Source of the DNA: Flavobacterium sp. TR2
GTDB lineage: Bacteria; Bacteroidota; Bacteroidia; Flavobacteriales; Flavobacteriaceae
Assembly: GCF_025252405.1 (NCBI RefSeq)
Contig: NZ_CP104307.1
Span: 1,364,001 to 1,428,000 of the forward strand
Reading direction: 5' to 3'
DNA: 64,000 nt
The notes beneath the pieces were generated by a model that saw only the letters and a program-made list of their open reading frames with translations, made no database searches and was not told where the DNA came from. Below, piece by piece: positions 28,121 to 58,029 of the stretch (position 1 is its first letter; each line of letters starts with the position of its first letter). A program made the translations under genes and the position numbers.

Positions 28121-28148
28121 GATTTAAGACTGTTTGGTTTTGCAATTA

Positions 28149-28212
28149 TTTTAACCGCAAAGCACGCAAAGATTTACGCAAAGTCCGCAAAGTTTTTTAA
28201 GCTTTGCGGGCT
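28149..28212. repeat. Inverted-repeat end related to the GxxExxY element
   Basis: TTAACCGCAAAGCACGCAAA followed by TTTACGCAAAG copies, with changes, the 35-bp end of the element at 56348-56889. The tail CCGCAAAG..CTTTGCGG plus TTTTTT makes a small hairpin. No gene is enclosed. Confidence 0.65.
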
Positions 28213-28348
28213 TTTTTGTTTTTTAAATTCTGATTCCAATGAACAGTTTGTCAATTTCGACAAAGGAGACTCGAGCGATAGGGAATAGGCGAAGCAAATC
28301 TCCGTAAGTAGTTCCAAAAAGATTTTTCGTCGTACATTAAAATATAGT

Positions 28349-28406
28349 CCGTGGTTTCAACCACGGGAGACCTATTATATTGTGTTCCCGTGGCTGAAAC
28401 CACGGG
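28349..28406. repeat. Paired GTGGTTTCAACCAC-type palindromes
   Basis: CCGTGGTTTCAACCACGGG (28349-28367) and CCCGTGGCTGAAACCACGGG (28387-28406) are two copies of one palindrome, 38 bp apart. They look like a dispersed intergenic repeat. The rest of 28213-28550 shows a stretch rich in GGAGACTCGAGCGATAGGGA-type sequence and no gene. Confidence 0.7.
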
Positions 28407-28550
28407 TTATATTTAATAAAAAACGTAAAGCTTATTGCTCTTCTCTGTTAAAAAGAAAGAAACTTCTTCTTTTTTAAAATTCTTGTCAATTTTTAAAATA
28501 TTGGAATTTAATCAATTAAAAATTTTTCAAATTTTATTTTAAAAAAATGC

Positions 28551-28712: not shown

Positions 28713-28725
28713 GTTTTTAAATTTT

Positions 28726-28820
28726 ACCGCAAAGGCGCTAAGATTTTACGCAAAGTTCGCAAAGGTTTTATTTAATCTTTGCGAACTTTGTGCTTTTACC
28801 TTGCGTGCTTTGCGGTTAAA
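28726..28820. repeat. Gene-less palindrome of two CGCAAAG-type ends (MITE-like)
   Basis: Left arm TTTTACCGCAAAGGCGCTAA and right arm (read backwards) TTTAACCGCAAAGCACGCAA continue into TTCGCAAAG on both sides, meeting at a short AT loop. The arms resemble the two ends of the GxxExxY element at 56348-56889 joined without the gene. Confidence 0.7.
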
Positions 28821-28840
28821 TTTCTTCCTATCTTTATATT

Positions 28841-56347: not shown

Positions 56348-56382
56348 ATTTAACCGCAAGGTTCGCTAAGGTTTACGCAAAG
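56348..56382 (+). repeat. Left terminal inverted repeat
   Basis: Starts ATTTAACCGCAAGG and ends TTTACGCAAAG; exact 35-bp mirror of 56855-56889. Inside it the CGC(A/T)AAG motif is repeated three times. Confidence 0.92.
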
Positions 56383-56397
56383 GGCGCAAGGATTTTA

Positions 56398-56775
56398 TTA
56401 AAGATTATTTGCTATTCTTTTAACTCCATGTTTTAGTAGGGCAACATTAAAATTTATTAATAATCCTAGTTTGCAATTTGTTAATTTTAAATAAGTCAAT
56501 AGTTGCGCAAAGTGAACTTCATTTAAGCAATCTACAGACTTTATTTCCAAAATTAGTTTATTTTCTACTAAAATATCTAGTCGATAGCCAATATCTAATT
56601 TTACTTCTTCATAAACTAACGGTAAGGCCTTTTGTTTTTCAACTGAAAGTCCCAATTTCCTTAATTCATAAAATAAGCATTCTTCATAAGCACTTTCTAA
56701 AAGTCCTGGGCCTAAAGTTTGATGAACTTTTAGTGCAGAATTAAATACAATTCGGGATAAATCATTCTCTGTCAT
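56398..56775 (-). CDS. GxxExxY protein (PD-(D/E)XK_3 family)
   Basis: A 125-residue protein taken from the ATG at 56775 (MTENDLSRIVFNSAL), the usual family start; a TTG further up at 56796 overlaps a TATATTTG box (56794-56801). The naming motif GLLESAY is followed by CLFYELRKLGLSVEKQK. The nuclease-like core reads RLDILVENKLILEIKSVD, with Asp and ExK as expected for PD-(D/E)XK. The biochemical role of the family is not established. It lies alone inside a pair of perfect inverted repeats. Confidence 0.9.
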   Translation of the reverse strand: MTENDLSRIVFNSALKVHQTLGPGLLESAYEECLFYELRKLGLSVEKQKALPLVYEEVKLDIGYRLDILVENKLILEIKSVDCLNEVHFAQLLTYLKLTNCKLGLLINFNVALLKHGVKRIANNL

Positions 56776-56854
56776 AAAATCAATATTAAGTCTCAAATAT
56801 AATATTTGAAATCTTAAAACATAATTTTATTCTTACAAAAAATAAAATAGCGTT

Positions 56855-56889
56855 CTTTGCGTAAACCTTAGCGAACCTTGCGGTTAAAT
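56855..56889 (-). repeat. Right terminal inverted repeat
   Basis: Exact reverse complement of 56348-56382. The hemW stop codon (56884-56886) and its last Ile codon (56887-56889) lie inside it. Confidence 0.92.
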
Positions 56890-58029
56890 CTCAGCATCTA
56901 CATAAAACAAATCACTCGCAATTCCATCCGTTAAAAATTTTCCTTTAATGGTTGGTTTCAGAATGTTGTTTTCAATAGAAAGAAGATCGTCGTTTAAGAA
57001 TTTTTTAGATTGTTCTAATAAATAATTCAAATATTCTGTCCCAAATTCATTTTCAATTCGGTTTAGAGAAACGCCCCAAATGGTTCGCAATCCCGTCATG
57101 ATATATTCGTTATAACGATCTGAAATGGTTAGAATCTCAGTTTCAATTGGGAGTTCATCGTTTTGAATTGCTTTTAAATACAACGAATTATTGGCAATAT
57201 TCCAGCCTCTTTTTTCGCCGTCATAACTGTGAGCCGAAGGCCCGATTCCGATATATTTTTTCCCTAACCAATAAGCAGAATTGTTTTTGGAGAAATAATT
57301 CTCTTTTCCAAAATTTGACAATTCATAGTGAATAAACCCGTTTTTCTGAAGCATTTCAACCAAAATCATAAAATGGTTGGAAGCTGCTTCGTCTTGAGGT
57401 TCAGCAATTTTTCCTGTTTGAATTAATTTGCTTAAAGCGGTTTTTGGTTCAACCGTCAAAGCGTAACTCGAAATATGAGGAACGCCAAAATCTAAAGCAG
57501 TCTGAATATTCTGTCTCCACATTTCGTCGCTCATTCCCGGAATTCCGTAAATCAAATCGAGTGAAATATTGTCGAAATATTTGGTTGCTTCTTCCAAACA
57601 TTTTTTGGCTTCCGCCGAATTATGAGCGCGATTCATCATCTTCAAATCATCTTCATAAAAAGACTGAATTCCGATACTCAGACGATTTATCGGACTTTTA
57701 GATAATTCTAAAATTCTTTCGACAGACAAATCATCTGGATTGGCTTCAAGCGTAATTTCTGGATTTTCGACAACATTATAATTTTTATAAACTTCTGAAA
57801 TTAAAAAGTTTATTTCGTCATTTGATAAAACCGAAGGAGTTCCACCACCAAAATAAATAGTTTCAATGATATTGTCATCCTGAGCGGAGTCGAAGGGTTT
57901 ACGCATAGCAATTTCTTTGGCTAATGCTAAAACCATTTCATCTTTCTTTTTCATCGAAGTCGAAAAATGAAAATCGCAGTAATGGCAAGCCTGTTTGCAG
58001 AATGGTATGTGAATATAGATTCCCGACAT
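56884..58029 (-). CDS. hemW: Radical SAM heme chaperone HemW (with repeat-encoded insertion)
   Basis: A 381-residue HemW. The iron-sulphur cluster motif is CKQACHYCDF (Cys11, 15, 18), with a glycine-rich SAM site YFGGGTPSVL and the family block NRLSIGIQSF. HemW inserts or carries heme for respiratory enzymes; it was long misnamed as coproporphyrinogen oxidase. Residues 45-52 (PFDSAQDD) are encoded by a dispersed DNA repeat at 57873-57897 and look foreign to the family. The last codon and stop come from the end of the element next door. Confidence 0.93.
   Translation of the reverse strand: MSGIYIHIPFCKQACHYCDFHFSTSMKKKDEMVLALAKEIAMRKPFDSAQDDNIIETIYFGGGTPSVLSNDEINFLISEVYKNYNVVENPEITLEANPDDLSVERILELSKSPINRLSIGIQSFYEDDLKMMNRAHNSAEAKKCLEEATKYFDNISLDLIYGIPGMSDEMWRQNIQTALDFGVPHISSYALTVEPKTALSKLIQTGKIAEPQDEAASNHFMILVEMLQKNGFIHYELSNFGKENYFSKNNSAYWLGKKYIGIGPSAHSYDGEKRGWNIANNSLYLKAIQNDELPIETEILTISDRYNEYIMTGLRTIWGVSLNRIENEFGTEYLNYLLEQSKKFLNDDLLSIENNILKPTIKGKFLTDGIASDLFYVDAEI
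57873..57897. repeat. Dispersed repeat inserted in the hemW coding sequence
   Basis: TGTCATCCTGAGCGGAGTCG plus AAGGG is a copy of the intergenic repeat arm at 6643-6667. Read on the minus strand in the hemW frame it gives PFDSAQDD. The frame is kept on both sides. Confidence 0.9.

Follow-up and report, generated by a model that had tools for sequence, protein, structure and literature searches.

RAYT genes are flanked by copies of their own dispersed repeat and are inherited vertically, the hairpins being more numerous in genomes that hold the gene, and their gene-less inverted REP pairs form intergenic hairpins that occur in clusters, as described in the accessible portions of PMC8049555 and PMC3116915. 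For the TnpA-REP genes of Bacteroidetes, the accessible portion of PMC6006769 describes atypical flanking structures with copies elsewhere. Judged by analogy, RAYTs with their REPINs are the nearest known arrangement to the one analysed here, a GxxExxY gene between inverted arms, and the likeness is one of arrangement and inheritance. As in RAYT and TnpA-REP systems, copies of its own dispersed repeat lie on both sides of the GxxExxY gene; inverted pairs without a gene lie clustered in intergenic regions and are more numerous where the gene is present, as in those parts of the RAYT-REPIN literature; and inheritance is vertical, with no IS-like multiplication among the copies fetched. In contrast to the HUH/Y1 enzyme of RAYTs, the GxxExxY enzyme is of the PD-(D/E)XK type, the arms differ from REPs in being runs of degenerate heptads, and genomes of the genus hold up to nine GxxExxY genes among the matches listed, whereas RAYTs are given as single-copy in the accessible portion of PMC8049555. 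The initial annotation had likened the protein to RAYTs acting on REP sequences; that analogy fits well in arrangement and inheritance but does not extend to membership, since the protein has no HUH/Y1 domain and matches PF13366 only.

The unit spans 542 bp within the window, by which we mean the whole 64,000-nucleotide stretch of DNA that was analysed. Its two arms (56348-56387 and 56850-56889) are 95% complementary over 40 nt and perfectly so over 35 nt (56348-56382 with 56855-56889), and the only gene that they enclose is the GxxExxY gene, just as had been proposed when exact 35-bp mirrored ends were described around that gene alone. The left arm reads inward and is of the heptad type ACCGCAAGG-TT-CGCTAAGG-TTTA-CGCAAAG; the right arm is its reverse complement. 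The left arm starts 1 nt from the start codon of the downstream neighbour, a cyclase-family gene (PF04199; 55555-56346, minus strand), and the right arm contains the stop codon and one further codon of the upstream neighbour, hemW (56884-58029, minus strand), so that the unit fills the intergenic gap between them; the coordinates thereby bear out the earlier description of ends that overlap the hemW stop and touch the cyclase leader. A search of the 64-kb window for the 19-nt end sequence, with up to three mismatches allowed, finds the two arm sites only, and in 100 shuffles it finds nothing.

The gene lies on the minus strand and more likely begins at an ATG (56398-56775, 125 aa) than at the TTG at 56796 (56398-56796, 132 aa). 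By its profile scores the product is a clear member of the GxxExxY / PDDEXK_3 family, with 148 bits against TIGR04256 (curated cut-off 35) and 142 bits against PF13366 (curated cut-off 22), its only Pfam match. The AlphaFold2 model has a mean pLDDT of 96.9 and the fold appears to be Cas4/RecB-like PD-(D/E)XK; Foldseek with the window protein returned no match below E 0.001, and a sequence search for relatives of solved structure returned none up to E 1. In an alignment of 69 stop-free sequences E27, D67, E77, K79, Q91 and Y95 are invariant and the PD-(D/E)XK catalytic positions are intact; among 75 translated matches of the species-wide set described below, seven have an in-frame stop within the matched stretch (L200, L205, L213, L215, L236, L254 and L255). 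Nucleases of the Cas4/RecB type carry a QxxxY motif, and Cas4 has a four-Cys iron-sulphur cluster, which the window protein lacks since it has only three Cys; a further difference is that the GxxExxY gene stands alone between hemW and the cyclase gene. Rpn and PD-(D/E)XK family transposases are, like GxxExxY, small stand-alone PD-(D/E)XK proteins that appear in mobile-element annotation, but they belong to other Pfam families, and we know of no cognate repeat family for them. A role in defence was considered and dropped, since the hits from PADLOC were weak and to Cas4 only, and none from PHROGs fell below E 0.008. The best named protein matches, among those listed, come from Flavobacterium species at 92-94% identity, and the organism's own 5.1-Mb genome holds five PF13366 genes. 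In the accessible portions of two papers GxxExxY appears as a virus gene (PMC12085832) and as a gene called cas4 by one program and GxxExxY by another (PMC8934634), a double naming that agrees with the fold result. A role for GxxExxY, or an association with a repeat, was not found in the literature set searched, outside which most subscription journals fall.

The arms prove to be a property of the family. We examined 192 distinct GxxExxY genes from three sets, one from the genus, one from the phylum, and a species-wide set made up of the best 80 loci among the matches listed when one genome from each of 84,980 species was scanned. The genus loci are the top-scoring among the matches listed, not a random draw, and 60 further places were taken in listed order, minus some near contig ends. 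From 204 loci, 199 had a usable ORF and 196 flanks of sufficient length, and removal of four genes present twice (L033/L187, L045/L190, L042/L183 and L082/L249) left 192; duplicates were retained in the control of 425 neighbouring genes. The motif, a degenerate heptad CRCRRAK (for example CGCAAAG, CACAGAG or CGCAGAT), was derived from the genus sample. Inward runs of it lie in both flanks of 145 of the 192 genes as against 10 of the 425 neighbours, and in at least one flank of 183 as against 109; 47 genes have no such motif on one or both sides, and wrong-way heptads occur in both flanks of 19. Most GxxExxY genes thus have such ends, as the initial annotation had anticipated, although many sequence types occur besides ACCGCAAAG. 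An inverted-repeat (IR) score of at least 14 was reached by 129 of the 192 genes, compared with 1 of 181 shifted positions and 7 of 425 neighbouring genes; when flanks were paired across loci, 38 of 460 pairs reached that score, and in direct orientation 10 of 92 did. In the genus sample inward motifs number 12.6 and 21.5 per kb within 75 bp of the two gene ends and drop to 0.5-0.7 per kb beyond 600 bp. In the sets added after the motif had been defined, both flanks carried it in 25 of 29 phylum genes and 45 of 71 distinct species-wide genes, with wrong-way heptads in 13 of 75 loci of the latter set.

These figures depend in part on where the gene edges are placed. The edges were at first set 12 aa before the HMM match and, after the data had been seen, were moved to the HMM match itself because the first edges cut into the upstream arm. 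With the first edges, 65 of 92 genus genes had an IR score of at least 14 and 72 of 94 (220-bp flanks) or 67 of 94 (150 bp) had inward heptads on both sides, the phylum set giving 6 of 31 and 13 of 31, respectively; with the later edges and before duplicates were removed, 148 of 196 genes had inward heptads in both flanks and 133 of 196 an IR score of at least 14. In the organism's own genome clear inverted repeats of differing sequence enclose four of the five GxxExxY genes, the same number that pass with the later edges: the arms are of CGCAAAG type at the window gene, CACAAAG/CGCAAAG type at L002, AACACATAGAAACATAG at L003 and CACGAATT type at L004, while the fifth gene (L005) has CACGAATT repeats upstream and, across the gene, only a short imperfect pair with an IR score of 10.5, below the threshold. 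A few GxxExxY genes carry another motif (ATTAAG, ACATAG or CATATAAGG), and GAT-type arms at L046, L054, L090, L280 and L288 contain an extra inner palindrome of the kind TTCGCTATCGCGAA. Outside Bacteroidota, heptads are found in both flanks at all four cyanobacterial loci (L225, L234, L235 and L251), 1 of 1 in Chloroflexota, 1 of 1 in Planctomycetota, 2 of 3 in Ignavibacteriota and 2 of 2 in Balneolota, and in one flank only at the single Acidobacteriota and the single Chlorobiota locus; several of these loci come from metagenome bins and may bear a wrong phylum label. One locus, L184, on a contig labelled Rhizobium sp. MAG, encodes a 77% identical GxxExxY protein between CGCAAAG-type arms and is probably a misbinned Bacteroidota contig.

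The type of arm follows the protein. On a tree of 94 proteins the heptad class AG requires 5 changes, compared with 31.2 after shuffling, and the class GAT 11 compared with 23.9; none of 500 shuffles did as well in either case. Since orthologues at the same site inherit their arms by descent, pairs without a shared flanking gene are the better test, and among them the share with an arm score of at least 17 is 1.5% at 40-49% protein identity, increases with rising identity to 4%, 20% and 42%, and reaches 92% (12 of 13) at 80-89%. Arm similarity therefore rises with protein identity at unrelated sites, which argues that arms follow the protein and not the place.

The repeat of the 542-bp unit is not private to it. 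Chance, or a one-off repeat, was rejected as an explanation, given the looser copies found genome-wide, the absence of the end sequence from 100 shuffles and the arms of the wider family. With up to three mismatches, a longer form of the repeat pattern occurs at 26 places in the genome, and the heptad-pair pattern CRCARAGNNCRCARAG has 99 matches there and 0 in a reversed control. The 99 copies fall into 39 clusters, 14 of them single, and include tandem arrays of four to nine copies; among neighbouring copies within 200 bp, 12 face each other and 1 faces away, and all 63 copies within fetched loci lie outside ORFs of at least 120 aa (both results from hand-copied tables). Only one of the 99 is beside a GxxExxY gene (at L002). 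The traits of REPINs are thus present: inverted pairs with a short spacer that are extragenic, clustered and hairpin-forming, the last from one fold-tested copy. Gene-less heptad copies occupy two places in the window. One, at 28724-28822 between a tRNA gene and an AraC-like gene, is a 99-nt hairpin that shares its heptad type with the arms and folds far better than its shuffles (z -7.2; the sole copy so tested), and a second unit lies at 28146-28215 after another copy of the same tRNA gene. Among six relatives with the gene next to the 28724 hairpin, one (G006) carries the hairpin together with a small insert, two (G015 and G008) have partial or other heptads, and three (G004, G011 and G024) have none. 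A palindrome family, CCGTGGTTTCAACCACGGG, also occurs beside heptad repeats, at 28340-28420 in the window and at 1327-1410 in L023, and looks like a separate REP.

Repeat numbers go with the presence of the gene and, in part, with its type. The counts by genome include the arms of the genes themselves, and those for the genus, the phylum and the Y1 contrast come from hand-copied tables. In raw counts that ignore kinship, the median repeat number in the genus is 7 with the gene (n 78) and 0 without (n 23), and among 247 genomes of the phylum, again with kinship ignored, an excess over control of at least 5 is seen in 69 of the 122 that hold the gene and in 10 of the 125 that lack it. Gene and repeat are also linked by type, still with kinship ignored: the median number of ATTAAG repeats is 18 (n 15) in genomes with a gene at least 63% identical to L110, 2 (n 63) in genomes with other GxxExxY genes and 0 (n 23) in those without any, while repeats of CGCAAAG type do not distinguish L110-type from other-GxxExxY genomes (p 0.65). 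There are exceptions on both sides. Two genomes without the gene hold 12 (G094) and 6 (G002) copies, ATTAAG repeats occur in 42 of 86 genomes without an L110-type gene (32 each in G051 and G029), and 5 of 78 genus genomes have the gene and no AG-type repeats.

Y1 genes were scored for heptads because of the Bacteroidetes TnpA-REP structures described in the accessible portion of PMC6006769. They are present in 68 of 101 genomes; 29 of 30 loci were scored, for some of which the chosen ORF is short, and heptads lay in both flanks of 0 of 29 and in one flank of 4. Several have repeats of their own, such as CCCGTAGGGA, and L308, L309, L317 and other Y1 loci are flanked by ATCCCGTAGGGAT with GGTAGAA, a family different from the heptads. 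One genome (G004), in which Y1 had no match, holds 138 heptad copies. Repeats are most numerous where both genes are present (median 8), and the median is 4 with GxxExxY and no Y1 (n 19) as against 2 with Y1 and no GxxExxY (n 9; p 0.10), a weak contrast. A Y1/RAYT enzyme as partner of the heptads is unsupported by these Y1 loci.

Among the copies compared, whole elements do not behave in an IS-like way. All five copies in the organism's own genome are at most 61.9% identical, none being near-identical as the copies of an insertion sequence would be, although the unit shares with such elements its terminal inverted repeats. Among the copies fetched, which for most other genomes are only some of those present, no two from the same genome exceed 62% identity in 23 of 25 genomes (71 and 84% in the others), whereas the closest match from another genome is 87% identical in the median. 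Both flanks are shared by all 38 pairs at least 90% identical. Median dN/dS is 0.05-0.10 at four sites, rough values since median dS is 0.8-1.3; only pairs with a defined dS between 0.05 and 1.5 were kept, namely 15 of 15, 9 of 28, 9 of 36 and 10 of 10. On these sequence comparisons the gene is under strong purifying selection. Conversely, 78 pairs at least 72% identical lack flank homology at E 1e-3; in the first 30, which were inspected, homology is for the most part limited to the element, with additional matches to adjacent repeats in some pairs, and in the examples shown the homology at unrelated sites often begins at a stop codon. Carriage as plasmid or phage cargo was rejected: at E 1e-5 a relative turned up in 8 of 72,556 records of plasmids and in 0 of 50,697 of phages. 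Paired GxxExxY genes about 0.5-1.5 kb apart occur at L291 (G005:C24) and, by coordinates, in G190:C4 and G296:C1; G005 also holds the most similar within-genome pair among those compared (84%).

The hemW-cyclase gap is not fixed in content. In 30 relatives read, it holds the gene in 10 and other heptad repeats in 16, the latter gaps measuring 61-92 bp with heptads that face each other; in G035 (L142) it is a plain 26 bp, and in three it holds something else. These states are interleaved on a cyclase tree that is poorly resolved, with 13 of 27 inner branches open, and across the gaps (L122-L149) the heptad types differ by species, as if replaced at a fixed place. A clean empty site, excision or target duplication of the whole element was found neither in this gap nor at 28724 nor in the same-site groups. 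Insertions of 45-320 bp in 17 such groups gave seven candidates, three with heptads; all three adjoin element arms (L102/L116, L075/L095 and L062/L043, the last two with 9- and 8-bp overlaps) and could reflect array slippage. The close orthologues at fixed sites, the purifying selection and the varied gap contents together suggest that the gene is kept and its sites are stable while the small repeats turn over. The proposal that the unit is a small element that itself jumps is not upheld: the copies compared within genomes are diverged, close orthologues occupy conserved sites and the gene is selectively maintained, whereas it is the repeat without a gene that is scattered.

How the gene and the repeat are connected can be read in several ways. 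We consider it somewhat probable, a little better than an even call, that the nuclease, whose gene is bounded by arms of its own heptad family, recognises those arms and would copy or maintain gene-less hairpins of that type around the genome in the manner of RAYTs. An unlikely alternative is that the arms are host hairpins, serving as bidirectional terminators, mRNA ends or operators for self-control, beside a vertically inherited nuclease that moves nothing. Such a role would suit repeats that directly follow stop codons at the hemW site and lie outside ORFs in the organism's own genome, as well as close orthologues that stay at one site with a dN/dS of 0.05-0.10. It sits poorly with the 98 of 99 own-genome copies that are away from any GxxExxY gene, with repeat numbers that track the presence and type of the gene, and with arms that still track the protein at unrelated sites; nor does termination need tandem arrays of four to nine copies. 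We consider it distinctly unlikely that the hairpins are spread by a different enzyme, either a Y1 RAYT or an IS, with GxxExxY having been caught between two hairpins or doing no more than trim or resolve cruciforms. Although Y1 genes are widespread (68 of 101 genomes) and repeats most numerous where both genes occur, no scored Y1 gene has heptads on both sides, several carry repeats of their own, 138 copies exist in a genome with no Y1 match, and capture leaves the type-specific covariation unexplained.

Least probable is an autonomous, IS-like transposon in which the 542-bp unit would move as a whole by its terminal inverted repeats, with GxxExxY as the transposase, a reading that is already weakened. 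The defined unit with its inverted ends, the similar pairs without flank homology (mostly element-confined in the 30 examined) and the in-frame stops in 7 of 75 species-wide matches count in its favour, but the low within-genome identity of fetched copies relative to the cross-genome median, the common flanks of all 38 closest pairs and the scarcity of plasmid and phage relatives speak against it. The absence of both-flank heptads from the Y1 genes scored, together with the many copies in G004, leads us to regard the heptad hairpins as a likely target of their own GxxExxY protein, which would copy or maintain them, as judged from covariation only. The initial annotation had also offered the protein as a factor acting on the repeats; gene-repeat and arm-protein covariation favour this part of the proposal, although neither cutting nor excision nor a duplicated target came to light.

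Cas4-like nucleases act on single strands, and the GxxExxY enzyme may bind its own arms as extruded or single-stranded hairpins and nick them, after which repair or replication could copy a hairpin into another intergenic gap. The gene would by now be mostly domesticated, so that hairpins move and the whole element does so rarely. A broader proposition, which we hold to be evenly balanced, is that GxxExxY nucleases are the engines of REPIN-like heptad repeats in Bacteroidota and at single loci in Cyanobacteria, Chloroflexota, Ignavibacteriota and Balneolota, that each type of enzyme evolves jointly with its type of repeat, and that a genome often houses several such systems; this would be the first repeat-mobilising system of a stand-alone PD-(D/E)XK nuclease.

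A common gene family without an assigned role thus gains a concrete partner, its own repeat. If the proposed connection is true, it would be a new means, distinct from RAYTs, by which a family of bacterial repeats is run, and would account for the heptad-type intergenic repeats (CACAGAG, CGCAAAG, CGCAGAT) in many genomes. It would also mean that the RAYT-REPIN lifestyle, in which a domesticated enzyme accompanies very small hairpins that persist as a population over long times, has evolved anew around a nuclease of unrelated origin.
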